Assembly: GCA_018417955.1 (NCBI GenBank)
Contig: JACTVC010000016.1
Location: 1,054,001 to 1,118,000 of the forward strand
Length of the DNA: 64,000 nucleotides
Source of the DNA: Laccaria trichodermophora
Lineage: Eukaryota; Basidiomycota; Agaricomycetes; Agaricales; Hydnangiaceae
Direction of reading: 5' to 3'
A program made the translations under genes and the position numbers. This document shows, one piece after another, positions 3,001-33,665 of this stretch (position 1 is the stretch's first letter; every line of letters starts with the position of its first letter). The notes beneath the pieces are model-generated. The model ran no database searches. It was not told where the DNA came from and saw only the letters and a list, made by a program, of their open reading frames with translations.

Positions 3001-3019
3001 TAAAGGTCTAGCCATCTAA
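1..3019 (+). pseudogene. Ty3/gypsy pol polyprotein remnant (RT, RNase H, integrase, chromodomain)
   Basis: The reading frame is open from base 1, so the N-terminus is outside the window. The reverse transcriptase active site reads YIDDIVVYSK near 130-160, and RNase H follows with a TDASD motif near 577. Two frameshifts (about 755-800 and about 960-1,010) separate the RNase H pieces, after which frame 2 runs to the end. An HHCC-type integrase zinc-binding region (1,740-1,850, ending CDVCQKIK) and the integrase core (about 1,900-2,250) follow. A C-terminal chromodomain (about 2,835-3,010) contains YLIRWKGYG. In-frame TGA codons lie at 1,556 and 2,111. The second sits where integrases usually have ISDR, which fits a CGA-to-TGA change. 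The gene once copied and integrated the element, and the chromodomain would have targeted heterochromatin. It is certainly a pseudogene. Confidence 0.92.
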
Positions 3020-7440: not shown

Positions 7441-10022
7441 GAGCGTACCTGGACCTTTACTTCTTCGACAACGAGCAGAGGGCGCTGTGGAGTGTCAGTG
7501 TTTGCCCCTCCTACCCCACTTCTGAACAAATCGCCTCTCTCCGACAACTCAGACGATTCGCAGCTGCCGTTGACCGTGTCACGGAAATACAGCGTGGCAT
7601 AAAGGACAAGCGTGCATTCATTGACTATGTGGCGCGTTTGCCTGGTTCTCGTTTCTGGATGCCGGATTCGGAAGCCGAGGTAGATTTCGCCGATGATCGC
7701 TACATAGGAGTCTGGTTAAATGGAATGGAAGAACATACAGCCCGTTGGTACTTGAAAGAAGGAATTCCTTGTTTCATAGCCAGAGAAATCCCACCCACTG
7801 AGCACGTGCAACTCGCTGCTTGGGAAGCTATGATCGACTTTGCCGCCAGAACCAACTCTTTACTGATTCATTGGAATGTGAACGAGTACAACGTTAGAGC
7901 CATTTCCCGAGGGGACTTGACTATAACGGATCCGTTGAGATCTTTCGATCCTGGTTGGATTTGGCCAGCCCCTCCTAGCAAACCTGACTCCAAAAACCGT
8001 AAGAAGGCAAAGGATCAGGAGACCGGCAATTATAGCCCTCCTCCACTGGTGACGGTTATCGTGGACAGAGACAGAGTCCCATGGATCAAACCCCTGCCTG
8101 TTCAAAGAGCTGAACCTTCGCGTGCCGGCGCTCCACCGACGGAGAAGAAGAAATGGAGGAAATTCGTGGAGCAACATCAGCCAGAGGGAACGTTCAGGGA
8201 GGGTGGAGCTAAGACAAACCCTGACCATCGAACACATAGTTGTTACGATTGAGAGAGACGTTGGCATATTTTCTTCCTGCACGCTCCCAAGCCACCTCCT
8301 GGTTGTGTCTCGAACGTGAGCGTATACAGCCAACCGTGCCCTCCAGGAATCTATCGTGATTTGGGTCAAGTTCGCCTTCGACATCCTTCATGGATCTACA
8401 ACAGTCTGGACCCTCAACCTGGCGACGCAGCAAGGGAAGCCCCAACCCCTAGACCTGAAGATCTGCCCTACCTGCGAGATCCCCCTCGTCCTCCTTCTGA
8501 TCACGATAGCGATAGCGATGACGGCCATTACCTGGACCGTGACTTCCTAGTTCAGTCAGTGAGGACCAATGAGAATACTGGGAGCGCGACCGTTACCCTC
8601 GCAGCCCCTGGCATGAATTCCTTACCCGCAGCCATAGGTGCGACGGAATCCCCAGTATCCCAGGCCACAGAGCCTAACCCAGCACCAACTACTTCCTCTG
8701 CCACCCGTACGGAGAAAAGGAAATCAGATGAGGAAGTGTCACTAGGAGATGAGGATTCAGCAGGAGAACCAATGGGCCTGCAGATTCCCCTCAATTTCAT
8801 GGTCGAAGACTCGATTGACGTAAGGATGGATACAGTCCCAGACGAACCCCTGGAATTCGCGTCTTCTTACTTAACGCTCTACGGATTGCCGCTTACGCTG
8901 GATTTCGTGTCCATTCAGACATTAATTATGGATATAGGAACTAGACTCCAAGTACCAATACGACGAATCTTCAGGACGACAGTCGGTCAGCTCCAGAGTT
9001 TCTGGCTCGAAGCAGGGACAGTTAACCAGGCGAGACAGCTGAGGAGTTACATGCACCACCGTCAAGAGAATGGAATCGAGTTGCTGGCCACCTTCGCTAA
9101 CTACGAGAACTACCTTTTTAAATTTATATCCTCAAATCACATTTATCTGATAACCATATTTTTCAGCTTCCTTAGAGCTCTAAGGCAGTCGACTCACACC
9201 TGGCCTAGTTCCTCTGCCCTCTATCCAATCCCTAGTGTCGACCCTCAGCCCTCTCAGCCACCCCCTGCTAGCTCAACAGGTGCTCCCTCGGCAGCAGCTG
9301 GTTCTTCTTCTCGCAGGACAACAAGCCGGGATCGACCAACTCGTCGATATCAGCATAGTCCTAGGGTGTCAGATCGCTATAACCACGCCAAGCGCTTGCG
9401 TTCCAGGTCTCGCTACCGTTCACCAGAGCGACCTGCATACTCTCGACGGCGTTATCAGTGTTCTCCTTCTCCCCGACCCAGGAATCGAGCTCACCACCGA
9501 CGCTCCATATCCCCGAGAAGATATCGCCATCTCTCGTGGTCGCCATCCCCTAAGTTGAGTCCGCCGTTGATGGAGAGCTCTTCCCTCGTTCACGCCCAAC
9601 CGCCGGTTATCCAAGGTGTCTCTGGGCATGCACTCCTCCCTAGCGCTATCGCGCAAACCCCGCTGCCTTCGAGCGTGCTTCCTGTAGTCCCTAATGCCCC
9701 AGCTGCTCTCAACCTGTCCCCTAACGCCCCGCTGCCTTTTGGCCCAAACGTTGCCTTCATGTGGTCGCCCTCGGGAAATACTTTTAGTCCAGTCTTGTTG
9801 CAGGGGAACACCACTGTCATACCTTATCCCTTGCCTCCGTCAGGACCTACCCCAAGTGCTCTGTTACCCTGGCCAGTAGCGGCAGCGCTGCCATCCATGA
9901 CTGGGAACTCAGCAGCTCGCCTTGACACTGACAGGCCCTTAGCGCTATGCATCTCCAACGCAATAATTCCTTCCCCTAACTCCCCTCCTCCTGAGAATCA
10001 GGGCATTCAGTAGATACGCTAT
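7441..10022 (+). pseudogene. Extra ORF of the retrotransposon, part 2 of 3
   Basis: The frame runs from the fold-back insertion to the KDZ insertion with TGA stops at 7,440 and 8,250 and a TAG at 10,011. The 8,250 stop sits in YD-stop-ERRW, consistent with a former CGA codon. The middle (about 8,800-9,110) is a compact acidic-to-mixed region. The part from about 9,200 to 9,560 is rich in Ser/Arg dipeptides, and the end is Pro/Ala/Ser-rich and low in complexity. An SR-rich, proline-rich protein suggests RNA or nucleoprotein binding, but this is inference because I see no named domain. About 9,110-9,170 is AT-rich and hydrophobic and may be an unspliced intron. Joined to part 3 the original protein would be near 1,195 residues. 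Confidence 0.6.
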
Positions 10023-10090
10023 GGAACCATAACAATAGAAATTGACAATTGTCCCAATAAGTCATAGGGCTACCCCAATGGGCCCAATTA
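10023..10090 (+). repeat. Left terminal inverted repeat of the KDZ element
   Basis: Reads GGAACCATAACAATAGAAAT onward and matches the reverse complement of 24,588-24,654 with only a few mismatches (for example at the outermost bases and one G/T difference near 10,069). Confidence 0.88.
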
Positions 10091-11214
10091 CAAAGGACGT
10101 TATGACACTGTACATTGGCCCAATGATGTAAGAATATGTATATTTGATTGTTGGGCCCAATGAAGCTGCCACTGTCAAAGCCAAGGGTTTATAGATTGGC
10201 CACATGGGTTAAATGGGGGTAATTTTGACCGTCAATATATGATTGCATTAAGCTACAGTTGATAGTTGGGCCCAACATAGGGTAATGGTTAATGGTCAAG
10301 GTTGGGCCCAATGGCCCAATTATTAAGCTACAGTTGAAGGTTGGGCCCAACATCAGGTAATTGTTATTTCGACAAGTTGGGCCCAACGGCGAAATTCATA
10401 TGACATGGCTTGTATCTTGGGCCCATGGATCAAAATACACTATAGTTCCAAAGGTTAGCCCAATCTTTGGATTTTCGGGGTCGGGGCATTGTTCCGTTAA
10501 GACCGGCCCCACGGACCCGCAGTTGTTCCGGACGTGTTGCTCCACCGCACCCGCGGATTAAAACGCGGACAAGCAATTGTTCTGTTACCCCCGTGGGCCC
10601 ACCCACCTTTCTTTGACCCGTGGTCCGCCTGCTGCTCCCGTGCACCCACGGACCGAAATAAGGACATAAAATCGTTCCATTACACCCACGGGCCCACCCT
10701 CCTTTCTTTGACCTGTGAACCGCCTGCTGCTCCCATGCACCCGCGGACCGAAATGCGGACGAAAAATCGTTCCCTCCTTTCTTTGACCCGTGTTGCTCCA
10801 TTACACCCGTGGACCACAACGCGGAACAGCAATTGTTCCATTACCCCCACGGACCAACAGTCGTTCTGTTACATCCCCCGTGGACGCTGTTGCTCCGTTG
10901 CGGTGACGGACCAAGGACTGTTCCATGACACCCACGGGTGAAGACTTTTGTTACACCTGTGGACCGCCTGTTGATCCGTTACACCCGCGGGCCACTGGCT
11001 AGACCTCCTGAGGATGGGGCTTTGACAGGCATGGGCCACCCAAAATAGGTGGCATAGGATATAGTCTGAAGTCCGATGAATCGTCCGGGAGCAATTTCTT
11101 AAAGAGACGAAATAGGGACTGTTCAGGCTTAATGTGGTCTAGTTAAACATGAGGATGACATGAGGCCATATTGTATATAAACCTCCGTGATGAAAATAAT
11201 ATTTGCAGGACGGC
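10091..11214. repeat. Left subterminal region with TTGGGCCCAA palindromes and GC-rich direct repeats
   Basis: No gene is seen. From 10,080 to 10,430 the 10-bp palindrome TTGGGCCCAA or close variants occurs about eight times. From about 10,500 to 11,000 there is a second array of imperfect repeats built on ACCCRCGGACC next to TGTTGCTCCGTTACACC. Many copies contain CCGCGG. Such subterminal arrays are typical transposase-binding zones. The last 150 bp (TATATAAACC near 11,173) may hold the dioxygenase promoter. Confidence 0.65.
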
Positions 11215-12608
11215 ATGACCACTGCTATGCCTGCCTTGCAGGCTCTTACAGACGATGTTGCCCTCTATATGTCCGGGAGACTCCGCTACAACATCTTGCA
11301 GGAGGGTCCGAACGACTTCCCACCAAAGGAGCTAGGCGAGGACCTTGTCACCGCATGCGAACAGGCTATCTCGGTGATAACGGAGGCATGGATGGCGAAG
11401 CCTATTCAAGTGGACTGGCATATCGAGGAGTTCGTTAAGGAGTTGGGATCACGACCTACAGGTATTCGTCAGTATCATTTTTATCCAACGGAATGATGAT
11501 GTCTCCTCCAGGAATGAATGAAGTTTTGGAGGCCGACTTAATGAAGAAGTTTCCACCCGCATATCCCTCTGAACGGGAGGTTGTGGAAGGAAGGCCCTTG
11601 AGAGTTCTGGATGTCTGCGGCTTTACGCTGGCTTGGTATTTGCCCGAGGCAATATCGGAAACTGTTCAGGTGAACTCCACCGCCTTGTTATTCAGCTGTG
11701 AAACTTACCTTTCATTCATCAGAACCGTCTTATATGTGCATTGGCCCATCTTAGGCCCTACTTGAAAGCTAACCCTCCTCGAAGCGGAGGCGGATGGCGA
11801 AATGACGCGGGTTATTTTCGGACCCCGGGTGAATCAGAGATACCCGCGGGTAGCGTAACTCTTACACCACTTTGGGGATCTGCCGGACATGAGGTATATT
11901 TCTACATTTTATAGTTATTCCTCGCTTATGGCCTCCCAGTATGATGGTACACCATTGCAAGCATCTTCCACCTTGAAGGACGACTCTGGTGGAGGTATGA
12001 GATTTATCAGGGACATTATGGACTTTCAAGCGATAGTGGGGGGTGTTATGAGTGTCCTCCATCCTGCGCAGTATTGTATTATGCGGGCTTCGCTTATCCG
12101 GGCTGCCAATCAAGGGAAGAAAGATCCGGATGGAAAGCCCGTTTCCCCCGTCCATGCCATTCAGGACGTCGACGGACTACGTCGAATACTTCGATATTGG
12201 GCCAGCGGATTTACGGGACTATCAGTCATAAGTCAGAGGGAATCACCATTCCATAGAGATGGACAAAGTCCAATGGGAATGTTCGATCTCCTGGCCACCA
12301 TTGGCCGGACGATTGATCCAAACCTTCGGACCGAGCTTCCAGGCATTGGGATTAGATTTCAATACAAGCCGGGCACTCTTCTCTCAGTATTGTCCAAGTC
12401 CGTTAGGCATGGAGTATCGCCTTCAACCGAGGAACGATACTGCTTGGCGTTCTTCATGAGAGAACGGGTACTCCGTCAACTGGGGTATGACCAGCATCCT
12501 TGGATGTCGGATGAGTTGTTTCTGGCTTGGTTGGAACTAGACGACCCGGAAAAGATGGAAAGAATCATTCATCTGGAACAAGGGGGTGAATGGAAACCAT
12601 TGATATAG
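11215..12608 (+). CDS. TET/JBP-family 2-oxoglutarate/Fe(II) dioxygenase (probable 5-methylcytosine oxidase)
   Basis: Four exons (11,215-11,461; 11,512-11,669; 11,723-11,893; 11,940-12,608) join through GT-AG introns to 414 codons plus stop, with all phases agreeing and no internal stop. The double-stranded beta-helix core is in the last exon. The iron ligands are visible as FHRD (His297, Asp299) and RHGV (His349), followed by an Arg in ERYC (Arg358) placed to bind 2-oxoglutarate. GMFDLLATIG and LPGIGIRFQYKPGT between them are characteristic of the fungal TET/JBP branch. Family members oxidise 5-methylcytosine in DNA, and the exact product here is unknown. The gene is next to the KDZ transposase inside the same inverted repeats. 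ATG 11,215 is the first in-frame ATG, but an upstream exon is possible because TTTGCAG precedes it. Confidence 0.86.
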
Positions 12609-12623
12609 ATATATACATATATA

Positions 12624-13829
12624 CTACATGGACAGACCCCGAACAGCTTTTGAAAAATCATCGTCCGTAACCATCATAACGTCCAAATTGTCTTGACATG
12701 GATTGGCCGGAATGTCTTGCTCCGAGGCGGGTCCGTGCAACGTATCCGGGTCCCCACCCTCTGAGAGGGAAAATTCTGGGAGACCTCGAATGGGCGGCCT
12801 GCCCCTCCTCTGTAGCCTTTGTGGAAGTGCCCGTCTTGGTCGGGCAGATGAAAGCATTGCTTGAGCCATATCCTCCGCCACCTGTGTATTCTCCTTCAGC
12901 TTATCCTCTTTCTCATGACGTTCTCGGATGTTATCAAGAACGCGACGTTGATATTCAGTCCGATATTCGGCCTCCATTGCAGTAATATCCACTGAGGCGT
13001 CCTGCATTCTTTCGTCCAGCTCCTTGATGTTGTCAGAGAGCCGGTTGATTTCTACATCCAAGGTCGCCGCTCCGCGGGCGATGCCATCCCGGAGAGCTTC
13101 CAATTGTTCTATCTCCGTGGAGTTGGATACGGAGATCGGAACCTCCCCTCGGTGTTCATAGATTTGCTCCAGCTAAACGGAAATGTCAACAATAGACAGC
13201 CTGGTTTCAGCAAAACGGTCAACTTACAAACTTTGAATGTATGAGAAGTGCATCCTCCTGCACATCACTCCATTTCGGAAATGTATCCACAATGGACGCC
13301 ATATCCTTTGCGTTCCACCAGTCACTCAAATAGCAGTCCACGATTCGATCAGGGTTGGTGTCCGGGCATTCAAAGTCCATATGAACTGGGCCCCTCGCGG
13401 AGATGGATTCTGCAAGATACGTGGGAATGTCGTAGTGATACCCTCGGGCACGATGCGATCCGAGTAAATATGTAATTGCGTCCTGAATTGAGAACGTTAA
13501 CGGGGAAATGAGGGACAAAAACAGGGTCACTTTACCACTTCTTGTTGAAACATTTTCACCCATGCTTCTTCCTGGTCCACGGTTTTTACATCCCTCAAAG
13601 CTCTGTTTGCGGCCCGAAACCTTGAGCTCATCATATAAAGAAGTTGTTGCATAGGCACCGTACGCTCTTCGTTGTCCAACTGCTCATCAGTGAACAACAT
13701 ATTTGGAGGACAAGAAATATTTTGCCGATAGATACAATCAATTCTTAGATCAGCCCTGTGGAAATACAGTAGCAAACAACCCGAACGGACATGATACGCT
13801 CCCACGTTTACGCCCGCGGCCGTAGCCAT
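12624..13829 (-). CDS. Coiled-coil hypothetical protein of the KDZ element
   Basis: Three exons (13,536-13,829; 13,228-13,482; 12,624-13,172) join in phase through GT-AG introns to 365 residues without a stop. I recognise no catalytic domain. The N-terminal 180 residues look globular and mixed alpha/beta. The third exon is strongly heptad-like and charged (LDVEINRLSDNIKELDERMQ), followed by a basic, proline-rich tail with RRGRPPIRG, which resembles an AT-hook-like DNA-contact motif. It starts only 18 bp from the end of the KDZ transposase gene on the same strand and ends 15 bp from the convergent dioxygenase gene. Role unknown. An accessory DNA-binding or oligomerising protein of the element is inference. 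The ATG at 13,829 is chosen as the first ATG after the transposase stop. Confidence 0.65.
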
Positions 13830-13846
13830 GCAAGGAGAACCCGTAA

Positions 13847-16800
13847 TCAAATGGCCCCGGAACGTTGGAAGTCAGCAAGCGCCTGGATCTGGAACGCCCG
13901 CCACATGCCCGCTTGTCTCCTAGCATAACACTGCTTCCCTGGAGTCGTTTCATATCCAAGGCCATCCCACGTTTCAGCCCGACGCTGGAAGTACAACATC
14001 GTCCAGCGCATTTCCCGCGGAACGAGCTTGAATTCCTCCAGCCACCTGTCCCGCCTTGCCTTCGCCCGGATATAATTCACTCGATACACTGGAATTACTG
14101 TTAGTCGTAGATCCAAAGACTGGCTAAAGTTCCTACATTCTTCCATGTGAAAGCTTTCGAATGAATCTCCATGAATATTCATGCCCCAGAACCAGGGAAT
14201 GTTCTGGTTTCTAAAGCCCCGACCATTTGGCTGAGAAATATTGGGAAGCGTATGGGTTTCTTTCTTTTCTATAGGTCGATATTTGTTGAGAATGTCAGCC
14301 GACGCACCCAAGCGGGCCAAAGCCCATCGAGCGTGTGCATAGACCCGGAGATGGTGTGCCAAGTTTCTATCCGCAGTATTTACCTTGTCATAGGAACGGG
14401 TCTTTCCCTTTTTACTTTCCTGATTGTTAATTTCTTTGCGATAGATGAATGATTTGTGTCCGATTTCCAAACGGATGGCTGCCAGTGTATCATTGGCTTG
14501 TGCAATCCGGAGAAGAATCTCCCGCTGACGGGCAATCGCCATTTGCTCCGGAAGGTCAGGAAAAGACGAGGGGAGTATGACCTCCATGCTTTCAGCCATT
14601 TGCCTGTCAGATGAAGGGGGATTGGCCAGCAGCATCTCCAAATCATCGTCATGTTCATATCCGTCTTCCACGGGTGGTATGTCCATGGTCTGACTCACGA
14701 AGTCTACTCCGGGAAACAGTTCGTATGCTTCCCGCTCGAATGCATCAATTCTTCGGAGAAACATCTGACGTCGCTTCGCCAGGTCGAGCTTGTCCTCGGG
14801 TGTTGGCTTCCTGCCCATCATCCGGATAAACCGACTTAACGCCAATCTACTAATATAAACTTAAAGTCCCTGATGAGGGACAATTAACTTACTGAGCTTC
14901 CTGTATCTTGATCCCAGTGCTAACCCACAATGTTACTCCCATGGAAGCGTTCACTGGGGATTCCTGTCCCATGAGCGCTGCTTGAACGTCCTTCTGCGTA
15001 GGCACTGATGCTGGCCTTTAATACAAGACAGATTAGGTTGTAACAGAGGAAGACAAACCCTTCGGAGCTTCTGCTTCATACACATCCATTGCTGAGGCAT
15101 CAGCCACCCGGCGTCTCTGTGCTTCCTCAGCAAGTCCATCCCAATCTTTAAGTTGTTCGGGGCTCGCAGTGTCCGAAAGTTTCAATAACTCCGCTTCCGC
15201 GGCCGCGAGTCCGGATTGAATCTTCTTCCAGCGGTGGCATAGCGAAGAAACTAACACCAATCAGCATCGCTTTTGGAAGACATATTTAAGGCGGACCCAT
15301 GTTCACGAGTTTCTTCCAGTTGCTATCTCCCATGTGGGAGTCCAAGACCTCGGTCCGATGGGCGAGAGTCATTGTTCGGGAGATTCGACCAATGTGATTA
15401 AGGGTCGACCAAAGGGTCTCCAGAATTTCACCATCAGCCTGACCCGCCCCCTCAATAAAAGTAGGTGAAAACCTAGCCAGACAAATCAATTGATGCCCGT
15501 GGACGTGGAAAAGGCCTATCCCGGGAATGATGATTAGGCCTGGGTGAACTTCGAGAAACGGGCTGTCCTCCACCCGTTTGAAAAAATTCTTATGGTACTG
15601 GCAGTTCACATCATAGACCACAATGCACTTCATTATTTCCTCCATGTTGGTGTTCTTCATTGCCTCACAAAGTGCGTAATCCATGTTCATCTGTCTAGCA
15701 AACTTTCTCAATGACATAAAAGACGGCGGAGGACAGGAGTACCTACCTTTCGCCTTTTTGAAAGTCAACAACACCACCAGGGCAGTAGCAGCCATGCCTC
15801 AGACACGCAGCAGCTCCCAGACCCGTGGAATCGCAACCTTTGTGAATACGGGCCTTGTCATTGACAGCATGATGCTCATTACAAGTTGGTGCCTAGAACG
15901 GCCGGGTCGAAAGGATCCGGAATAAATGGCTAATTGCTCACCTCCTTGACTTCTTTCGCGACCCTCAAATGCTGTCCGTATCTTTGCTTTTCCACCATGT
16001 ATCCCTCCCCATTCTTTAACCAAACATCCGTTTCCGGCCGTCGCTGCAATTTATGATTACAGGTAAAGTTACCATCCAGAACAAAGCCCCGAGAATACGC
16101 CCATTGCTCAGCATCCTCTTTCCAGTTCTCTGGAAGATTAACCCCCGGCTGCGGACATGCTGCACAGAAAAGTGCTAACTCTCCTGTTCCGGGAGGACGA
16201 TGTTGATGTCCGAATCCAAACCACTTGTATTCTTTTAAACTTCTCCATTGACGACTTGCCCGAATAAGCTCTCGATATCGGTCCTGCCATTTCCTTTTGA
16301 GTCCATAGTCCAAAAATCTCATTGTGGCTCCTACATACCTTAACCTGCCTTGGAAATGCTTTGGAAGTCATTCTCCGGAGTTTGGAATAGTAATGGGTCG
16401 CGGACGTTTTGCATTCCAGGTTTTCCAGGAGATAGTCATCAAGGACACTGAAAGTAAAAGCTGTCTGCGGTTGAGCGGAGGTAGAGGGAAAGAATCCCAT
16501 CCGTAACAATTGAATATCCAATGCGGGTGCACCCGCACAATGGCAGAATGACGTAGGTAGCTGATGAATTCCGTTTGTATGAACAAATGTAAGCACCCGA
16601 CGTCCATTCAGATAAGATACAGGTGGATCGGGGATCTCATTGTCATCCTGGAGACTTTCCCCGGCATCCGTGAGATCCTCGATATCGATGTCAATGTCAA
16701 TGTCATCCGGGTCCATATCCGCGGAATCCAATGGACATCCACCCTGATCCAGATAAATATCTGGGTCTAACCCCTCATTATCCGAAGAATCCCATTTCAT

Positions 16801-17490
16801 CCCCGGACAAGGCGAGCCGTTGTGTCCCAAGTGTACGACAGTACCCACTTTCCATAACCAAGATGATGAGAAATATGAACCAGTCCAGCTTTTCACCCTG
16901 TGAAACGGATGTCGACGATGTGAGATTCTGCAGCAATCTGTGCATTCGGATGTATTTCCCAGACAATCCTGGCATTTCCACGTTCCCTCCCTTACCCCGC
17001 ACGTAGCACAGATATTAGAGGGTGCCGGAGCCTCTCGTTCAAGTAATTCATCAAGATACAACCGGCGACGATTTCCCCACTCACGTAAATAATCGTTGGA
17101 TGACTGTCAATTGTAAAAAATCTGTTGACATGACTAAGTCAAGGTACCTACCTTGGAACCATTTATCTCCTGATTGTTCACGTTCATGAACATAATTTCT
17201 TCATTTGTTCCCATTGAGCAGTCATCCCGGTCAACTTGGGGTAAAGAAACAGAGTTTTTTTGGGGGGATTGAGATGGGGTGGAAATGCATTGAGAGGACG
17301 TTGGGTCTGTTGGAAAAACTGTCTTCACTTTGACATTTCCACGGGGACCTTGAGTATAACGGGTGTGTTTCAGAGAGCCTATGACCTTTGTTCTCCGGGT
17401 ACTCATCTCTAATCCGTGGTGTTGTTGTGGAACTTTGAAGGAGACGTTTTGCCTCGTGGTGAACCTCATGTTCATCATGTTGAACCTCAT
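13847..17490 (-). CDS. KDZ (Kyakuja-Dileera-Zisupton) transposase with CxC2-like N-terminus
   Basis: About eight exons read on the minus strand, roughly 1,100 residues, with small GT-AG introns and no in-frame stop once they are removed. The N-terminal part (17,108-16,345) has a cysteine cluster CATCGVREGTWKCQDC then CTDCCRISHRRHPFHRV, the zinc-binding CxC2 type that precedes KDZ domains. The catalytic region shows CNEHHAVND, GCDSTG and DFQKGER, then VYDVNCQYHKNF and GQADGEILETLWSTLNHI, with the acidic residues expected of an RNase H-fold transposase. The remainder is a long helical C-terminus. It should cut and join the ends of the 10,023-24,654 element. One donor site (near 15,297) is non-consensus, so that intron boundary is less certain. 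The start is not sharply defined: ATG 17,490 opens a short, basic disordered leader. Confidence 0.88.
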
Positions 17491-17820
17491 GTTTATCAAT
17501 CAATGGATAAGTCTTCCTTTGCTGCATTTCTCCCAAGTAGATTAAATAGGGTCAGGTGAAGGCTCTGATTTTGTCACCACTGATAGCATGCCCGGCAACG
17601 GTAGTATAATGCGGACTAGCAGAAAAGAGTGAGCATTCTATTTTTAGCTCGCCAATCTCTGGTGGGCTTGCCAAAAAAGGCAGAAAACTTGTCAAATATG
17701 GTAATCAGGCCTTTGTTTGTTTAGCATCCCGAAGTCTAACATTTCTCTGCCGAATTCAGCGAAGAAAAAAAAAACAATTCAAGAATACATTTACAACTCC
17801 ATCTCACGAGCTTCTAAAGA
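17491..17820. promoter_or_regulatory. Divergent intergenic region between KDZ transposase and the basic hypothetical gene
   Basis: 330 bp without a gene separates two genes that start away from each other. It contains an A-rich tract (17,765-17,775) close to the rightward start and TTTAGC/CAAT-like stretches, but no motif I can name. A shared bidirectional promoter is inferred from the arrangement only. Confidence 0.4.
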
Positions 17821-20313
17821 ATGAACAACAACTCGCTAGATGTCCCTGTGCCCTCCGGGGACGAAATACCTCCCCCGAAAACGGTGGAACACGTCGCACC
17901 CCCAGCCCATATCTGGGAAGACTGGCAGACGGAGATCCTAGAAAAATATCTTCCGGAATATAGGTCAAAGAAGTCTGCTGGAGCCCGGGTTGCAATTATG
18001 GGAAAGGTGCTACAAAAATTCAAGGCGAGGAAGGAATCTGCAGAAGGAGATACAGCTAACCTCCGAAAGGTAAGCATAGACCGAAACGGATGGCCCGTTT
18101 GACTGCTAATTGAATACCACAGGCCGTCCAGCAATGGTTCGGAGTCAAGTCCAGAATTCGAAAGCCTAAAGAAATAAAAATCCGGAGCATGAACTGGAAC
18201 TTCCGGACCGTCGCATCGGTGCAGAAGAAGATGGAAATTAAGGAGGCCCAACGGACGCTATCTGGAAATGGGGATATTAAGTTTGGTAGCTTCCAAGCCG
18301 GGCTGAATTTGGTTTTGAGCAATCTGACAGAGGATGAGATTGAAGAGTTAAAAGAGACGGCGAAAAAGTGGAATTTACAAGGGCCTCCGGAAGAGGAGAA
18401 ACAGAGGTCTGCCTTTGTCCGTACCCTTCTCACCCGGCTCATGCTTTTACAAACAGGCTGGCTGTGAAATCCGCAATGAAGTTCTGCCGGACCTTTGCTG
18501 AAAAAGCCTGGAAGCAGCTTGGGGGGAGGGTCTACATTTTCTGGGGTTGCCGCGATGAAGACGGGACACTATCCGCTTCCAAATTCGACTTTAATGCTGA
18601 ACTCGGGATGGGCAGGAGCTATCGAGATGTTATTGACGACGGTTCTGTTTCTGACCTCTCCTGGGGAAAATATCTTCAGCAATGCTATGATGGAAATGCC
18701 AAGGCCGCGGAGAATGATATTTTTGTCGGGGGACATCGTAACTCACCAATGGATTTGGACACCCGGGAGAATGGTGAGCCAATACTCCCAGAGCCAGAGT
18801 CATGGCCTTCGGATGTCACGGGGGAGGTAATGATCCGATGGTTGAAAAAGCTATTAAGATCATTTGTAGGAATGCATTATTGTGAGTCAGACTACCTGCC
18901 ATCCTGTCCTACAACGGCCCATATCTTTTTAGCATTGGCCACTGATGGAAGAACCTCTCGGGTCCCGTGGGCCGATATTGTGAAAGATCAGGCAACGTTC
19001 ATAGATGAAGAATACCTTCCGGATTACCAGACGCTTGATGCGGAGCCGTCGCACCTCGCCATTCAAAAGGTGAAGACGCTGTTAAACTTTTGGATTCAAC
19101 GACAGCGTGCCGGGCAGACTGTGTTTCGCTTTCGGCTTGTCATCCAGGGTACTGAACGTGTCCCGGCAAAGGCTCCAGACGTCCGGACGAATACGCAAAA
19201 GCCGACCCGTAGATCCAGAGCAAAGGAGAACTTGAAACGACAAGTCCGTAGATCGAATGAAGGGGAACTCAGAAGTGACGAGGAAGTTGATGATCCATTG
19301 AAAAAAAGGTCAAGGGACAAAAGGGCAAGGGTAAAGTCAACAGAAAGGGAAAAAAAGGAAAGAAGTCCGCGGAGATGGTCGACGATTCCGGAGAAGAATT
19401 CGATCTTCTGGCGATGGATGACTTGGTCTTTTCTGATGATGACCTCCCTCTTCCGAATAGCTTAGACCGTACAGCCGGACGTGACATGGGATCTGGTGGG
19501 ATGGGCATGAAAGGCCCGCGGGTGGGTGGAACCACTACTACGAAGGGCCCGCGGGCGGCTGGAACCGCTGTGGTATGTACAACCGATGGAGCACACTCCA
19601 CAACCACGGCCTATACCCTACCAGCGCCCGCCATTGGCCCAACCACCGTCCAGACCCTCCCCGCACCCCACAGTTTAGCCACCGCTGACAAGGCTTTGTG
19701 GAACAGGTTTGCGGCTCATCTTCCCCTCGACTGCGTCGATTGGTCCGAGGAGCAAGCTATTGCACAATTCCGCGTGTTTCAACGTTGGTTCAGTGCTGAG
19801 ACCAATGGTGTACTGGCTGGGGCTGCATTATACACCCCCCCCTCAGTGGCAATGAACAGGGACGTCGCAGACCCGTCACCACCCGCGGGTGGGAACGATT
19901 CTCCGAAGACGATTGAGCCCGTCTTTGCCAAGGTCGCAGAGAAAATGCCTGACCTCATGCTGGTTGAAAGAACGACTGCATGCGGTTCCACCAATCCGGG
20001 AGAAAGGACACCTGAAGGGGCTACCCCCACGCTGGCAGACAAGGAGACTCTGGCGTTGAATCATTCACTCCCGAATAATTCAATGATCCAAAATGCACGC
20101 GTTGAAGAGGTTCCAAAACGTGTATTGGACCCATCGGACAATCCAGAGGGTCAGGACATCCAGATGAAAGATGGCCCACCCGCAAAGAGGGCCCGGACCG
20201 CTGTGAAACCAACCCCTGCCAAGCCAACCAGGAGCAGCGCCCGTACCAATGCCCCTGGTCCGTCCATCCCCTTGACTAGATCGAAGGCAAAGCGCGGGGG
20301 TAAACGCAAATAG
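17821..20313 (+). CDS. Basic, largely disordered hypothetical protein of the KDZ element (one apparent frameshift)
   Basis: Exons 17,821-18,069, 18,123-18,406 and 18,457 onward join in phase. The N-terminal 180 residues contain WEDWQTEILEKYLPEYRSKK and GVKSRIRKPKEIKIRSMNWN, a helical, basic section that looks DNA-associated. The middle (about 18,460-19,140) is globular and the last part is Lys/Arg-rich then Pro/Thr/Ala-rich, ending in a basic SKAKRGGKRK tail. At A7 (19,301-19,307) the frame changes. One extra A would join the two halves as KKKVKGQKGKGK and so on, giving one protein of near 800 residues. It could be a real frameshift, a sequence error or a missed intron. No family name can be given. 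The tail resembles nuclear localisation sequences. The element context suggests an accessory mobility or chromatin factor. Confidence 0.65.
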
Positions 20314-20513
20314 TCCGGCCCAACGTCGGACCTTTTACTTACTGGAACTTGACTTTCATTTGTCTAAATACATTGGAGCTTTAGCAGTCCGTTAGTACTT
20401 GACAATATAATCTGAATGGAATCTTTGCAATAACTATGTAGACAGCTGGAGAAGCTGGATCGTTTCCCCACGGCCGCGGACCGTTTTGTTTCGGCCGCCT
20501 GGACCTTTTCAGG

Positions 20514-20569
20514 AACGTTAATCACCCTCGGTGATTAACGTTTAATTCCCTCCAGCATCTGGAGGGAAT
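20514..20569. terminator. Two adjacent perfect stem-loops between convergent genes
   Basis: AACGTTAATCACC-CTC-GGTGATTAACGTT (20,514-20,542) has a 13-bp perfect stem. ATTCCCTCCAG-CAT-CTGGAGGGAAT (20,545-20,569) has an 11-bp perfect stem, and both have 3-base loops. They sit in the 360-bp gap (20,314-20,673) between genes transcribed towards each other. A transcript-end or boundary role is inference. The rest of the gap shows nothing else. Confidence 0.55.
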
Positions 20570-20673
20570 GCATTGTAACCATCTGCTCAAGAAAAATTGT
20601 ATTTGAAAACCTAGCTGCGATAACTATGTGTATGTCCAAAAAAAATTATAGGAGGGCCGTAGACACCGTACAA

Positions 20674-22990
20674 CTAATCCAACGTCTTGGCCCGGTCAAC
20701 TGGAGAGCCGTCAACTGCATTGAAAATGTAACGTCCGTCATCGATGGAGGGGACTAGGCCGTGCAGAGCGTCGTTGGAAGGAGTCGATGGCCGTGGATGG
20801 ACGTCGCCCAGGGAGATGGTAGTCAGGTCTTTAGCACCCGCGGACCCGTGGACTTCGCTCAAACCCCCTTTCACGTCCTTAGCCCTCTGCACCTCCTTCC
20901 GAACCGCGTCGTCGTCGACTACCCTGTCCCATCCCACCGCCCGTTCAACTCTCATCCGCTTGTCCAAACCATCATCCGGGTGCCTCAAGAACTCATTGGT
21001 CATCACATTGAGGCAGAGCCCCTCTAGCTTCCCCAATCTTTCCTCAATGAACTCCTTTCCACGGCGTACGTTTCGAATGTCTTCTTCGATCCCAGCGACC
21101 CTCCCACCCAGGCTATCCAGTTCGTCCGGTAACCTCGAGATTCCATCCGCGTCGTTTAGTCGAAGGTTGTCGTTCACCCCCTGGATAAAGTTCTGAATCC
21201 GGGTTTTCAGGCCCTCGGACAAGGACCTCATCTGCTGCTGGGTTACCATTCCTTCAACCTTTTCACGGAGTTCGTCCAGCACCTGCGAAGAGACGGGATC
21301 CTCACTCGGGGCGCGTGCGGCGAACGATTCCATCAAGACCTTTTGACTCTCCTCAAGGTCCTCCAACATCGACCTCTGCATCTCGAGTTCCTTCTTCAAC
21401 TCTTCCATCTCCTGGTCCTTCTGCCGGATCGCGATGGCGGACATGGCCTCGACTCGGGCGGACGTCTCGCGGACCTTATTGGACATTTTGCCCAGATCAA
21501 CGCCTTGCTGGCGGACGGATGTCGAGATGCTGTCGAGACGACGGGTGAATGGATCCTGGAGGTCGATGGGCGTATGGGAGTCTTCCCTAAGCTCCGCAAA
21601 TGTAGCCCCTGGGGGACGTTAAGTCACTCTGTATTTCCATAGAGAAATAGAAGGACTTACTGGCTGTTTCACCATCGTGGCCTGGTCGTACACTCCCATC
21701 CCTTACCCTCCCCTTTGTGACGCTAACCTCAGGTTCGGACGTCTGGCGACTTGAGGCCCGCGTCACCCGAATAGCCACCTTTGGTTCCTTTGCAGACTCT
21801 GGGACGATTACCTCCGCTACGGACTTCTCAGGGATTTGGTTCGGTCCCGTGTAGCGCGAATTCGCATATACCGTTGTCTTCTCTGGATGAATGAGACCGC
21901 GGGCATCGTCCTTGGCGGGGGGTGGTCGAGAGCCCCCACTCTGGGTGACAGCCTCAGTCTTCGCGGGTGGTTTGGTGGCGCGAGGACGAGGGCGCGCATC
22001 TTTGGCCTCGATTTCTTTGCCCGCTGGCTTCGCACTTTGCTTCGGCGGAGCAGTGACGAGGACGATGGGGGGAGTCAGTTCACGGGGTTTTTTCGACGTC
22101 GTCTTCTTGGGCATCGGATTGGAGGTAAGTCGATTGGCAGACGCACCGGGGGTGTTGACAAAGCTACAGCCGATCTTCCTTGAACGGCACTTGACGCACG
22201 CGTTGCCTTTGAGACCTATTGCGACAACGCAATCCAAGTTGGCGATCTCGCACTGCTTGCAAGGAGTGCGATGGCGGGGGGTGGGTTCGGTGGCCGTAAC
22301 TCCCATTGTCCCAAAGTCGTAATCGGGGTCGTCCATCTCGACATCCTTGTTCTCTCCCTGCACCTTCGCCTTCTTCCTCTGCTCCTTCGGCCCTGGTACT
22401 TCCACAACCTCAGCCTCCATGTCTCCATTATCCCCTGCATCCGCCTTACGCTTGTGCCCTCTACTCCGCTTTTTCGGAACTTCCTCCACAACCTCCTTCT
22501 GTTTGCTTTTCTCTCCGGCCGCTGGCCCATCCGCGTTCACTCCCCAGCCGCCTAATAGATCACTGAAGTCATCCTCCTCAACTTCCTCCTCTTGCTCCTG
22601 CTCGGGCGATGGCTCCTCGAGAACTTCCCAATTAAAATCCCCCTGCTCCGTTACAAGGACCTCGTTGGTAATCCGCTCCATCTCGGGCGTTACTGAAAAG
22701 TCAGGATCGTGTTGCAGGACTTGCGCGCAACGTAGGTACCAACCCTACATTTTTCTCTGAGTTGCATGTAATGTTAGATAGTGAAATACACTCACCACAA
22801 CCTTTCGTAGGGAATCCTCCCGAGCTGCCCTTGTCCGCTCGTTCGCACCTTCATACGATTCCCTGTACCAAGTGCGGGCCAATTCGATGAGTGAGGGAAT
22901 CCGCGGGTAAATCTCGTTGATTTTTTCACGGGTGGGAAGCTTCTTGGTGAGATCGGAGGGGATGTTGAAGATGGAGAGTGGGGTGGACAT
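20674..22990 (-). CDS. Zn2Cys6-like zinc-cluster and coiled-coil protein of the KDZ element
   Basis: Three exons (22,796-22,990; 21,661-22,744; 20,674-21,608) join in phase to 737 residues with no stop. An acidic N-terminal third (EEEVEEDDFSDLL) and a basic patch are followed by CKQCEIANLDC, about 10 residues, then CVKCRSRKIGC. This CX2CX6C-X10-CX2CX6C pattern is like a binuclear zinc cluster but with a long linker. Next comes a Pro/Lys-rich linker and then a long coiled coil (about 21,100-21,450 in DNA) with heptads such as MEELKKELEMQRSMLEDLEE. Zinc-cluster proteins usually bind CGG triplets as dimers held by a coiled coil, and CCGCGG sites are frequent in this element. Self-recognition of the element is therefore plausible but unproven. 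The N-terminal start MSTPLSIFNIP is the first ATG and has a clean upstream region. Confidence 0.7.
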
Positions 22991-23330
22991 AATGACCGTC
23001 GACGCTAACGTGGTGGGTGGATAACGGAGTGGATGGGTGATGGGAAAGAATAGAGAGGTGGTGGGGGTGGAAATATTCTATGTCAACATTTCCATTTTCG
23101 GACATCAATGAATTTCGGCCGAATCTGGAGGATCGCATCTCGATTACTCCATTGTCCACCATCCAAATTGTCTTGAACAAAGTACTCCATTGTCCACCCT
23201 CCGAATCGTCTTCAGCAATAAAATGTCGTCTACGTCCCCTCTTGGTGCGCACTGTTCAACCCTTTTGTTTATTGACTAGTCAACTGACTGGAGAACAAAA
23301 GTCCGTTTGGCTGGGAATGCTTCCGCGGAC
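22991..23330. promoter_or_regulatory. Divergent intergenic region with a duplicated CTCCATTGTCCACC motif
   Basis: 340 bp between the minus-strand zinc-cluster gene and the plus-strand small gene. CTCCATTGTCCACCATCC (near 23,146) recurs as CTCCATTGTCCACCCTCC (near 23,187). TTGACTAGTCAA (23,271-23,282) is a perfect 12-bp palindrome close to the rightward start. Both could be regulator sites, but this is inferred from symmetry and position only. Confidence 0.4.
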
Positions 23331-23892
23331 ATGATGTCCCGGACGTTCGCCACAACAAAGGGTAGGTGTTCACGTATGACCGTTGATTTCGTTGACCAAT
23401 CTACCTAGGCATCAATTCCATGTTGGAAAACTACGAGCGACTGGAGCGGGCGAGAAATGATACAGATGTACGTATCTCATTTCGTCCTTTTACAACTTTC
23501 TAAAAGCCATCCTGAAGGTCGCTATTGCAAACTCCGAAAGCAATAAAACTTCCGCGACGCTCAGGGATTCTGATGGTCCTACGCGGGTACCTCTATCCTC
23601 GCCCTCCTCGAATCTCCGTCGGACCTTTTTTGATGAGGTCGCACCGGATTTGCCAGCAGTGACTCACCCTCTGGAATACGCCAGAATGGCGTATAAGGTA
23701 TTGTATAGGGAATACGAGGAAGCGGTGAGGGCTCGGGACTTTTTGCTGCAGGTCCGCTCTCATGCGGAGGACCAACTTGAACAGTTGGACATGATGATCA
23801 GCCTCAAGAAAAAGGCCGTTCAACTTCAATCCAAGGGTGTGAGTTCAGGAGCTGTACTTAAGGTGTCGGATGGAATGGATGGTGGGCCTTAG
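23331..23892 (+). CDS. Small helical hypothetical protein of the KDZ element
   Basis: Exons 23,331-23,361, 23,409-23,467 and 23,518-23,892 join through GT-AG introns to 154 residues. The sequence is mostly helical with a charged heptad-like section (YREYEEAVRARDFLLQVRSH then EDQLEQLDMMISLKKKAVQL), flanked by short Ser/Thr-rich and Gly/Ser tails. No domain is recognised. It is the last gene before the right subterminal repeats and is divergent from the zinc-cluster gene. Either of two tandem ATGs (23,331, 23,334) may start it. A partner of another coiled-coil protein of this element is possible. Confidence 0.6.
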
Positions 23893-24587
23893 TTTTTTAC
23901 ATACATTTATGAATACTTGTGCCCGCGGCTTCTACGAAGTATCCGGAGATCCATCACATTTATGAATACTTGCGCCCGCGGCTTCTACAAAGTATCCGGA
24001 GACCCATCACATTTTTCAATACTTGTGGCCGTGTCTTTTCGTTAATTAATACTTGCACCTGTTCCTTCTAGAAAGTATTCGGAGATGTATAATGTTGATT
24101 GAGACTTCCCCCCACGTCTTCTACAATGTATTCGGAGATCACAAAAGCTTGGATCTGTTGGATGGAAGGGATGCGGGTCGGTAGTTTGTGACTTACATTT
24201 ATGAATACTCGCACCCGCATCTTCTACAAAGTATTGGGAGATGGATCACGTTGTGCCATAGTTGCGTCCCCGCTTTCCGTTGATTAATACTTGCAGCTGT
24301 GTCTTCTACAAGGTCTCCGTAATAGCTTTCCGGAGGAATGTATCCGGATCTTTCAACAAGTGCACTGGGCAAATGGGCCCAACTTTTGGCTATCAGTAGA
24401 TTATACTTTGGGTACCTATGGTACCATTGATTATAGCAATAATCATGTCCTTTTGAGCACATGTGGCCCAACCTTTTACCATTGATTATGGCAATGATGA
24501 GGTCTGATGAATACCCATTGGGCCACACATGAATACCATATGTTAGGTACATCCATGGGTCCCAGGTATGGATCCATGGCGTCCATG
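23893..24587. repeat. Right subterminal region: about 55-bp direct repeats and GGGCCC motifs
   Basis: No gene is seen. A unit containing TTTATGAATACTTG, GCCCGCGGCTTCTAC and AAGTATCCGGAGAT repeats with decay at about 23,902, 23,960, 24,010, 24,050, 24,200 and 24,280. From 24,360 to 24,600 GGGCCCAA-like palindromes recur, mirroring the left subterminal region. Confidence 0.7.
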
Positions 24588-24654
24588 TGTATTGGGCCCA
24601 TTGGGGTAGACCTATGACTTATTGGGACAATTGTCAATTTCTATTGTTATGGTA
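24588..24654 (-). repeat. Right terminal inverted repeat of the KDZ element
   Basis: Reverse complement of the left end. The inner side begins near TTGGGCCCATTGGGGTAGAC and the outer side ends TTGTTATGGTA before the CTAT duplication. Confidence 0.88.
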
Positions 24655-24658
24655 CTAT

Positions 24659-25114
24659 AGTGACATCTATGTATACTTGTGTGAGAATGTCCGACCTACC
24701 TTGATGTCCCGCATGATGGACGATCTGGCCTCCAGATTGCGAGACCCAGAGGGGTCTACCTCGCTCTCTGCTCAGCTATCGGACCCTCACTATCCCCTAG
24801 CTGCTAGGCTAGGAGGGGATGATCGAATGGAGGTAGATTCCCCTGCAGCCATGAATCCCAGGGAGTTCGAGGAAGCGCACTTAGCGGCGATCAACGACAT
24901 GATGGCCTCAGCAGGACCCTTGGTGTTGGATCCGGTACAGTATGATTACCCAGGCACCAATGCTTCGCCCAGCGACTTGGAGGACGGTGAAATGGAAGAT
25001 CAAATGGCGGATTTAGGGTGGAAAAGGACTAAACGAGGCAAACGTGCTGGGCGACGGATTCAAAACATTCGGAAGCAAGATGAAAATCGTAGGCGCAGAC
25101 AAGATCGATGTTAA
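24659..25114 (+). pseudogene. Extra ORF of the retrotransposon, part 3 of 3 (C-terminus)
   Basis: This frame continues from base 10,022 when the KDZ element and one CTAT are removed (TAT then AGT GAC ATC). It encodes about 150 residues: an acidic helical section (MNPREFEEAHLAAINDMM), then an acidic stretch and a basic end RRIQNIRKQDENRRRRQDRC. The stop at 25,112 lies 45 bp before the 3' LTR. An ATG near 24,704 could start a truncated product in the present arrangement. No family recognised. Confidence 0.6.
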
Positions 25115-25158
25115 TCACCTCAAGGATTGAAGGATGCTCCAATCTCATGGGGGGGCTT

Positions 25159-31185: not shown

Positions 31186-33665
31186 GTGAACTGTTTTCCT
31201 TTGTTTTACAGATTTGCAGTGTTTCTTGGCTCCCTTGGTTTCAGCATTATATGCACTTTGTTCTCTGCTTTGATATGCCTTACTTTCCCTGTAACTGCTT
31301 TCTCATTCTTGACAAGGCTGTGTGTTATTCTTGCCTTTGTACCTTTGGTCTCTGCAGCTCCAAAAACCCAGCCATTTCCCAATCTGCCATTTAAAGCTTT
31401 CAGTGCATTTGTGGAACAAACATTTGGTCCAACTATCTCATTAGCCACAGTGCTTCTTCTCTTGTTTACAATGACTGAAAATCCTGAATTGCTCAGTCTA
31501 CATGCCTGTCAACAGCATCCAGCTGAGGGTGAAAACAAAACTGTAGCTTCTGGATGGATTCATTCTTTGTCATGTGCTATAGTGCACTGATTGAAGGATG
31601 ATATTAAAACAGTGTTTCGTCCTGGAGAATATTGGCCAAAGCAGAATCACCAAGTCACAAAATTGTCTATCAAACTTGATGCATTTGCAAATTTATTGAA
31701 TCTAACCCCATATGACCATCAGGGAAAGTTCAAAGAGAGATTGCGGCCAGTTTCCTATATTGCAATTCAAGCAGTTCATGCCATTTGTCCTGATAGCATT
31801 ACTTGTGTTGATCAACAGTGTGCTTCTCGAGCCCTTTTGCAAATAACCAGACCAAGAGATATTCCATTGGTTACTTTAATCAAAGACAATATTCCTTATG
31901 AGGATGTTCCTATTCTAACAGGCAAATGTATGCAATGTGGTGCTACCTATTATGCAGATCATGAGTGCTTCAAAGACAACTATGGTTCTTGGACCAAATG
32001 CTATTTGAACTCTGCACGATTCCTAAAGATAGGACAGTCTACTTGGGTTGACAGAAATTTTACACATTCTGTTCTTAGTGGAATGTATAATTTCCATGCA
32101 TCAGCCTCTTCATATACGCAGTATTGGAATGATTGTGCTTCAGTTACTGATTCCAAAGTCAAAGTGACTCAGCGTCATGTTTGGCAGGCATTTGTTCAGG
32201 AATCAATTAGAACAATTGCAAGTGTGAATAACTATAATTTGGAGTTGCCTGAAAACTTGAACATTGAAGAAGTTACTGAGCAGGCATTTAAGAAATTAGG
32301 AAATGGAGGGATAATAGAGCCAGGAAAAGAACATTCATGTTCTAAGTGCTGTCAACCATATAAAGCCACTGCAGATTTTATGGCCAATGAAGACCCTGCA
32401 GCAGTGATAGGAGCAGATGAAAATTCTACTGTACCTGTTTTAACAGGAGAATATGCAAATTTATCTGCACAAGAGACTACAAGAGAGAGACAAACAGCCC
32501 AATCAAGAGCAAACATTCTTAATCATGCTGATCCCAATGCTATGGATGTCAGTGATGATGATGCTGATTGTTCAATGATTGTAATGGATGGTGCTGTTAT
32601 GGGCCCTCAGGTAATTAAACTTAATTGGCCTTCTAGAAACTGGATGCTAACGTTTTTAAAGCACTGTGCAGCAGAAGGATGCATTAAAGACTTACAAAAT
32701 ACAAGAGGAGGGGCATTTTGTGAAGAACATGAAAGACAATATGGGAATAAATGCCGTATCCATGACTGTCCTCAAGATAGAGTTGAGAATACACTGGCAT
32801 GCCACTCTCACCAAACAGAATGGAAGAAATACAAACTTGACCACAGCTGTTCAAGCTTGCTTGGAGTAAAAAGGATGTTACAAAGACCAGAAGAGAGAAA
32901 TGCTTGGGAACCTGGTCTCCGCAGAACTGTTCAGCCCCATGATGATGATGAGGATGTTACAATTCCATGACACAATTATTTTGGAGCAGCCAGATTCTAT
33001 TGTGTTGAAACAATTACAGCACCATGTGGTGTTGTAATTGCATGGGTTAAATTTGACAGATCTGAGTCTCCAACCAACATTCTTAATTGGTTAGAGAAGA
33101 TATATCCTACTGAGGAATCTCGACCACACTACATTTGCATTGATAAAGCTTGTTGAGTACTTAGAACAGCCATTGCAAATGGAAGCTGGGATAGATGGAA
33201 GAAAACCACACGTTTTATTGTTGACTCTTATCATTATATCAATCATCGTACATTGGATTACTTGTGCCGCAAATGGTGTAATCCTGGCCCATTAAATGGT
33301 TCTGCTCCAAATCTGGTTAAAGTTGCTCATGATAAAAATGGAAGACCATATCTTCAACAGGCATTTAATACACAGGTATATTATGCATTTTCATTCAGTT
33401 TGATCTGATTTGACTGACTCAATTATAGGCATGTGAACAATTAAATTCTTGGCTTGGAGGATTTGAGTCCATTCTCAAACAAATGAAAACTGGAAATTTT
33501 GATTGGTTCTTGCATACCATGCTTTTTTATCACACTCAGCATGTTATTCAAAAGCAAGGACAGAAGGAAGAGCCTCACCAAATAATTGAAATCAATGATG
33601 ATGAAGATGATAACAGTGGAGAAGCTATTATAGAGAGACATTGGAATGTGGAAGATGATGACTAA
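31186..33665 (+). pseudogene. KDZ-family transposase-like protein with CxC5/CxC6 cysteine clusters
   Basis: One frame runs from about 31,212 to an intron at 33,376-33,428 and then to 33,665, broken by TGA at 31,588, 32,968 and 33,154. The first cluster is CMQCGATYYADHEC (about 31,930). A second is HSCSKCC, then CIKDLQNTRGGAFCEEH and CRIHDCPQ with CHSHQ (32,330-32,830). This matches the CxC5 and CxC6 clusters described as associated with KDZ transposases. The C-terminal part reads ICIDKAC, RFIVDSYHYINHR, CRKWCNPGPLNGSAPNLV and ACEQLNSWLGGFESILKQ, with conserved acidic positions. All three stops are explained by CGA-to-TGA. The N-terminal stretch (31,212-31,380) is unusually hydrophobic and its start is unclear. 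The last 800 bp is duplicated on the minus strand at 35,395-36,190. Confidence 0.75.

Follow-up and report, generated by a model that had tools for sequence, protein, structure and literature searches.

KDZ transposons were reportedly named by Iyer et al. in 2014. TET genes are already known to ride fungal transposons. We analysed a 64,000-nucleotide stretch of Laccaria trichodermophora DNA (hereafter the window), which carries such an element. The closest described systems are the TET+ Kyakuja transposons Kyakuja-1_LB and Kyakuja-2_LB of Laccaria bicolor (Kojima 2025, PMC12730594). They are like the present element in their KDZ transposase, AG-type TET residues, CA..TG ends and 7-bp target site duplication (TSD). 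Judged by these sequence features, the element matches the published TET+ Kyakuja transposons, and it may be a copy of Kyakuja-1_LB or Kyakuja-2_LB. In contrast, Kyakuja-1_LB and Kyakuja-2_LB are described as having no terminal inverted repeats, whereas inverted repeats start here 20 bp inside the ends; and where the main text of that paper mentions no further genes, four more are present here.

Two other systems bear comparison. CcTet of Coprinopsis cinerea (7vpn, 8jkk) has a homologous dioxygenase domain, with the H-R-D residues and Asp337 in common; the TET of the element has Ser and not Gly at 331, and its gene sits in a defined element. The VANDAL/VANC anti-silencing elements of Arabidopsis, as presented in PMC5735166 and PMC10398659, are a possible analogy: there too the element encodes proteins, and short motifs recur within its non-coding sequence. 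Unlike them, our element has its own dioxygenase; DNA binding by the accessory proteins G3 and G4 is putative.

Ends, target site and copies of the element

The whole element spans window positions 9999..24681 on the forward strand (14,683 bp, 5'-CA..TG-3'), as delimited by the borders of a multi-copy alignment, its own TSD and an empty site in paralogues. Comparison of the flanks identifies the two TSD copies, TGAGAAT, at 9992..9998 and 24682..24688 (no strand assigned). A 7-bp TSD accompanies all four insertions inspected (the window copy, the full copies C2 and C1, and the shorter copy C8b), each having its own duplication. Two paralogues of the host repeat, 96.4 and 96.5% identical over 1,527 bp, cross the insertion point without a gap and read TGAGAAC where the filled site has TGAGAAT; a third paralogue, 83.9% identical, is also without the element.

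The initial annotation had placed the element at 10023..24654, with a 4-bp CTAT duplication. CTAT does adjoin both inverted repeats, but it is subterminal sequence belonging to the element: copies at unrelated places share the bases that flank it. In every aligned copy, near-identity continues beyond 10023 and 24654 until CAGGG is reached on the left side and CTTGTG on the right. Divergence begins only after these termini, which fit 5'-CA..TG-3' and lie 24 and 27 bp outside the proposed positions. The empty site fits the 7-bp TSD further out, and a CTAT-joined empty site, sought with up to three mismatches, was not found. The shorter reading is thus already contradicted, and we give it practically no chance. 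The annotation had itself named homology stopping elsewhere as grounds for rejection; its exact ends fall on that count, and the element itself stands.

The inverted ends reported at the same time are real, although subterminal rather than terminal. Element positions 21-101 and 14582-14662 match in inverted orientation with 92.7% identity over 82 columns (window copy compared with the other full copies), and the repeat begins just inside the outermost 20 bp, which have no clear inverted match. The left end region (9999..10468, + strand) is CpG-poor and holds 14 TTGGGCC sites on both strands; the right one (24352..24681, + strand) is CpG-poor as well, with four such sites. Each contains its subterminal inverted repeat.

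When the genome was searched for further copies sharing these ends and this order of genes, two full ones emerged, C2 and C1; of the two, one is 99.6% and the other 99.7% identical to the window copy. A sibling element, 73% identical, conserves all six genes, and the 6.2-kb copy C8b retains G5 and lacks TET. Each of the six genes is intact in at least one copy; all three full copies have one or more broken genes, so that among these three, the only ones checked in full, none keeps all six intact. Altogether, the element is real mobile DNA with a predicted cut-and-paste enzyme, a TET enzyme of the DNA-demethylation type and four further conserved genes. From sequence identity, its mobility appears recent enough for 99.7%-identical copies to remain.

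Six genes in a conserved order

The genes follow one another as TET (+), CC2 (-), KDZ transposase (-), G3 (+), G4 (-) and G5 (+). All six had been proposed as spliced genes, and the copies and the sibling support their models, those of TET and G3 being built by hand. Against the 73% identical sibling, dN/dS ranges from 0.06 to 0.24 for five of the genes.

The TET/JBP dioxygenase (11215..12608, + strand; 414 aa, 4 exons) matches Tet_JBP PF12851 with 50.6 bits and CcTet 7vpn with 114 bits. Its alignment with CcTet shows H-R-D, Ser331 and Asp337, and the residues of AG-type TET (HxD, the distal His, Gly/Ser331 and Asp337), whose roles are given by Kojima 2025 (PMC12730594), are all in place. With a dN/dS of 0.14 against the sibling, TET is under purifying selection between families and so must serve something.

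The KDZ transposase with its CxC2 cluster (13847..17406, - strand; ~1,060 aa, 8 exons) scores 167.8 bits with PF18758 and 87.8 bits with CxC2. Two of its eight exons gave dN/dS values of 0.12 and 0.06. One of its intron boundaries, near 15225-15306, is uncertain, as is one splice site in the sibling (exon 14893-15010). The stop codon is conserved in the sibling. CC2, a coiled-coil-like protein (12624..13700, - strand; 322 aa, 3 exons), has an open frame in all three copies and the sibling, with a dN/dS of 0.16; lineage 4 contains a relative, at 34% across 106 columns with an E value of 4e-16. No Pfam family was found for it, two below-cut-off matches of 13-15 bits being set aside as chance. 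A model joining transposase and CC2 into one gene was ruled out by the stop conserved in both families.

G3, a conserved core with a basic tail (17821..20313, + strand; ~780 aa), has its frame broken in the window copy. The A-run frameshift noted there by the initial annotation is confirmed, and neither C2 nor C1 shares it; the frame is open in C1 and in the sibling, and dN/dS is 0.20. A remote relative of G3 adjoins the TET of another family. The G3 profile found no match among solved structures up to E = 1, and a structure prediction of the core from four sequences was discarded (mean pLDDT 34). Weak Pfam matches of its relatives (RAMA, 14.2 bits against a cut-off of 35.2; Ntox34; TilS; DNA ligase N-terminus) were rejected as chance.

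G4, a zinc-cluster/coiled-coil protein (20674..22990, - strand; 737 aa, 3 exons), keeps the spacing CX2CX6CX10CX2CX6C in all four relatives checked. Its Zn_clus scores of 18.4 (window copy), 13.9 and 15.5 bits all lie below the Pfam cut-off of 21; dN/dS is 0.24. The searches for homologues were limited to ~8,000 scored candidates for G3 and as many for G4, and a small number of matches is therefore no sign of rarity. G5, a small helical-looking protein (23331..23892, + strand; 154 aa, 3 exons), is open in all three copies and matches LACBIDRAFT_316532 of Laccaria bicolor at 96%; its main exon, exon 3, has a dN/dS of 0.40 (interval 0.23-0.66).

Genome matches place TET, G3, G4 and G5 in constant order at 14 loci, a count that took 35 of 86 G3 matches, 42 of 51 for G5, all 65 for G4, all 76 for TET and five chosen KDZ matches. 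At 47 of 74 TET loci, G3 occurs downstream of TET and shares its strand, with the transposase between them (30 + 32 G3 matches, sub-exon and duplicate ones dropped; 76 TET matches merged into 74 loci). No G3 was detectable at 26 of the 74, and 14 of 62 G3 loci have no TET within 20 kb. All these counts are lower bounds, drawn from the best-scoring candidates. Two clusters fall outside the 14: C16:674995-690587, which has all four genes but in an order that is rearranged and differs from the usual one, and C14:406246-454999, in which several elements are combined into a composite. G3, which follows TET at 47 of 74 loci, is a candidate core component, absent from the Kyakuja main text of Kojima 2025 (PMC12730594).

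Could G3, G4, G5 and CC2 be chance passengers picked up by one copy? Three of the four are without an assigned Pfam family, and the G4 zinc cluster is sub-threshold. Their frames and most splice sites are nevertheless kept in the sibling, dN/dS is 0.16-0.40, and the order is the same at 14 loci. On these sequence comparisons the idea is already contradicted, and we hold it to be highly improbable. The initial proposal that TET/JBP and four further genes travel together on a KDZ transposon is borne out by three near-identical copies, the six-gene sibling and the 14 same-order loci.

CpG decay, end arrays and possible roles of the cargo

CpG transitions make up 56 of the 66 substitutions among the three full copies, a signature indicating that methylation exists for the element to counter. 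CpG decay in TET-bearing copies is not lower than in other repeats of this genome. TET-carrying copies decay by methyl-CpG deamination like other repeats here, and carrying TET did not keep them free of methylation. Deamination traces accumulate over long periods and are no measure of present methylation. As the initial annotation proposed, such a unit could alter methylation at its own sites and thereby permit expression or excision. TTGGGCC end arrays are retained in each of the six elements of family B that were read, as well as in C8b and at the left end of the sibling; the array-keeping relatives include non-autonomous, TET-less derivatives.

The reading we find most probable, with some reserve, is a TET-bearing Kyakuja-type KDZ transposon whose TET counters host methylation and whose accessory proteins serve its cycle via the arrays. 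Judging from the domains, the transposase would move the element by cut and paste, and TET would oxidise 5mC (perhaps 6mA) laid on the element by the host, keeping its genes or ends usable. G4, perhaps with G3, may bind the TTGGGCC arrays and recruit transposase and/or TET; G3, G4, G5 and CC2 would together serve the transposition/anti-methylation cycle, and relatives keeping only arrays may be moved in trans. The ends, TSDs and copies, the empty site, the domains, CcTet-like catalytic residues, dN/dS well below 1, constant order, G4 spacing, kept arrays and CpG signature argue for this. Strong CpG decay in TET carriers, the lack of a fully intact copy among three, the TET loci without G3 and the G3 loci without TET, the sub-threshold G4 zinc cluster and the few L. 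bicolor TET genes expressed (4 of 46 in mycelium, as reported in Licyte 2022, PMC8889193) count against it.

The four accessory proteins might instead form the transposition complex, or regulate it, with TET acting alone. Arrays kept in non-autonomous relatives are what sites of a transposase complex predict, C8b has G5 without TET, and some G3 and G5 matches are located away from TET. G3 following TET on one strand at 47 of 74 loci speaks against this, but the intervening transposase leaves the two readings unseparated; we regard it as quite conceivable, short of an even chance. Somewhat more doubtful is that TET acts untargeted on methylated repeats generally, its products marking or silencing them, and is kept for another step such as repair or regulation. 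This would agree with the undiminished CpG decay, with the non-specific oxidation in Agaricomycotina suggested by Kojima 2025 (PMC12730594) and with 5hmC/5fC reported on many repeats and mostly non-expressed genes in Licyte 2022 (PMC8889193). Purifying selection on TET implies some use, however, and the decay is a long-term sum rather than present methylation. A sequence-targeted counter-silencing, in which G4 with G3 would recognise the end arrays and bring the element's own TET, so that every Kyakuja family would de-repress its own members, non-autonomous ones included, we consider unlikely.

For the preferred reading, in which TET and the accessory proteins serve the element's cycle, the locus offers concrete test material: six genes in one unit whose ends are exactly placed, the empty site, copies that are nearly identical, the more distant sibling, and natural TET-less derivatives bearing the same arrays at their ends. 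The element thereby makes the idea of a dedicated toolkit against DNA silencing testable.

Borders, insertion site and full copies

The window corresponds to C8:1054001-1118000 of a 59.0 Mb genome in 77 contigs. Searching this genome with 378 bp from each end proposed in the initial annotation (10023..24654) returned at least 40 match rows for the left end and at least 71 for the right. When copies at unrelated loci are aligned, their bases stay nearly identical beyond those ends, as far as CAGGG (left) and CTTGTG (right). Because near-identical sequence continues outside them, we place the element, a TET-bearing KDZ transposon probably of the Kyakuja type, at window 9999-24681 (14,683 bp), flanked by the TSD TGAGAAT. 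The element first proposed is real, its exact ends are not; CTAT, taken for the target duplication, is subterminal element sequence, the actual TSD lying further out.

Two other full copies, C2:1355058-1369735 (14,678 bp, TSD ATATGAA) and C1:3956692-3971373 (14,682 bp, TSD CAGGAGC), are 99.6% and 99.7% identical to the window element, respectively. The empty site is present in two close host-repeat paralogues, on contigs C45 and C44, which run ungapped across the insertion point over 1,527 bp with one copy of the site. The host sequence is a repeat (window 8316-10013 and 24682-25140, plus strand), whose frame at 8316-10013 meets its stop codon within the element; a more distant insertion-free paralogue lies on C12. 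Elsewhere in the window we find Gypsy-like retrotransposon remains (40-3019, plus strand; reverse transcriptase with RNase H-like domain, Tf2-1 SH3-like and chromo domains) and a 1,022-aa tetratricopeptide-repeat frame (41699-44767, minus strand; TPR_10 in 15 stretches).

Six genes and their conservation

Gene models bear out the count of six spliced genes. They encode a TET/JBP dioxygenase (TET; 11215-12608, plus strand; Tet_JBP domain, 50.6 bits), a coiled-coil-like protein (CC2; 12624-13700, minus), a KDZ transposase with a CxC2 cluster (13847-17406, minus), a protein with a core and a basic tail (G3; 17821-20313, plus), a zinc-cluster/coiled-coil protein (G4; 20674-22990, minus) and a small helical-looking protein (G5; 23331-23892, plus). 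TET aligns with CcTet across the catalytic H-R-D and carries Ser331 and Asp337, positions described in Kyakuja as Gly or Ser and as Asp, respectively (Kojima 2025, PMC12730594). The six cysteines of G4, a putative zinc cluster, have a spacing (2-6-10-2-6) identical in all four relatives checked, but its zinc-cluster Pfam scores are under the cut-off. A Pfam search assigned no family to G3, G5 or CC2. Protein database searches gave a single match carrying a species name, LACBIDRAFT_316532 of Laccaria bicolor (96% identity over 77% of G5). Window 31591-32970 (plus strand) holds a second, different KDZ-type sequence: its frame of 459 aa scores 95.8 bits for CxC5 and 45 bits for CxC6, two cysteine clusters found alongside KDZ transposases.

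Across the three full copies, frames are open in 3/3 for CC2, G4 and G5, in 2/3 for TET and the transposase, and in 1/3 for G3. From these counts, no copy is fully intact (0/3), yet every gene has an intact version among the three.

C77 carries a diverged six-gene sibling, 73% identical over 13.1 kb, whose left end is at 1305236 and whose right end falls at the limit of the sequence analysed. In it TET, CC2, the transposase, G3 and G4 all have open frames, as does G5 in its main exon, and most splice sites are kept. Selection on the genes is seen in pairwise Nei-Gojobori dN/dS between this sibling and the window element: 0.14 for TET, 0.16 for CC2, 0.20 for G3, 0.24 for G4, 0.12 and 0.06 for two transposase exons, and 0.40 (interval 0.23-0.66) for G5 exon 3. 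For G5 exons 1-2 the ratio is 0.55, from 30 codons; its interval is uninformative. At 0.49 for TET and 0.39 for G5 exon 3, dS reaches at most about half of the values for the transposase, CC2, G3 and G4 (0.95-1.30); TET or G5 could have been exchanged between families.

Recurrence of the gene order and shorter relatives

Joining matches at a 16-kb linking distance, we find TET-G3-G4-G5 in the same order and orientation in 14 clusters genome-wide, or in 15 if an interrupted locus on C31 is counted; some of these belong to lineages whose G4 is just 25-42% identical. All four genes are present in two more clusters, one rearranged (C16) and one composite (C14). In one diverged lineage a CC2 relative (34% over 106 columns) adjoins TET, and a KDZ-like frame is also there. 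Another 44 clusters are TET-only at single-sequence sensitivity; a remote G3 was found in the 5 kb adjoining one of them, on C20 (hhalign probability 99.9, E 1.7e-33). Using this G3 as query raised the count: a G3 is present within 20 kb at 48 of 74 TET loci, and none is detectable at the other 26; ~4% of the genome lies that close to a G3. G3 lies downstream of TET on the same strand at 47 of the 74, in 37 cases at 5.4-6.9 kb. TET is absent from the 20 kb to either side at 14 of 62 G3 loci.

Counting both strands, the left 470 bp of the element hold 14 copies of the motif TTGGGCC and the right 330 bp four, compared with four in the 13.9 kb interior and two in the other 49 kb of the window. 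These ends are CpG-poor (o/e 0.29 and 0.07 versus 0.87 in the genes), those of the C77 sibling less so (0.40 and 0.59 versus 0.91). Six fully read relatives of 4.7-6.6 kb, family B, have ends 85-91% identical and repetitive interiors; among the longest frames listed for four of them there is no recognisable gene. Each of the six carries 15 + 4 TGGGCC sites in its ends, and 7-bp duplications are identical in three, mismatched at one base in one and absent in two. A 6.2-kb copy, C8b, retains G5 along with 1,304 bp at the left end and 1,495 bp at the right. Family B and C8b look like elements moved in trans.

Besides C8b, 13 clusters consist of a G5-like match only (e.g. C15:288517, C23:3518322, C10:1174603), many ~51% identical; they are perhaps non-autonomous elements retaining G5. 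At C23:268074-302713, a left and a right end in the wrong orientation have the TSD ATGCGGC in common; two elements may have undergone an inversion between them here. The ends at C4:171470-209005, 37.5 kb apart with the common TSD GCGCTGT, are those of one element enlarged by later insertions.

Methylation trace, proposed mechanism and known systems

The three full copies differ by 66 substitutions: 63 are transitions, 56 of these at CpG, which makes up ~11% of positions (binomial tail 3e-44, independence assumed). At 56 of the 66, the lone differing copy has T or A and the others C or G. This pattern is the signature of methyl-CpG deamination. Such decay is not peculiar to the element, since CpG transitions also account for 12 of 16 substitutions between the two host-repeat copies, and for 30/54 and 24/52 between these and the window flank. 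Carrying TET did not keep the full copies methylation-free.

From their domains, the KDZ transposase would move the element by cut-and-paste and TET would oxidise 5mC. G4 or G3 may bind the TTGGGCC arrays, TET or the transposase may be recruited to them, and family B would be mobilised in trans.

Complete TET+ Kyakuja elements have been described, two L. bicolor families having 7-bp TSDs and CA..TG ends but no TIRs. Their TET has been proposed to serve escape from methylation-based silencing; extra genes are not mentioned in the text consulted (Kojima 2025, PMC12730594). In L. bicolor, oxidised 5mC is reported on transposons and TET genes, 4 of 46 TET genes being expressed in mycelium (Licyte 2022, PMC8889193), and KDZ elements with inverted-repeat motifs are reported in Marasmius oreades genome work (PMC8290104). 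Within the open-licence literature searched, our element is classed as a new member of TET+ Kyakuja, possibly catalogued already; what is added here is its six-gene anatomy and the breadth of its recurrence.
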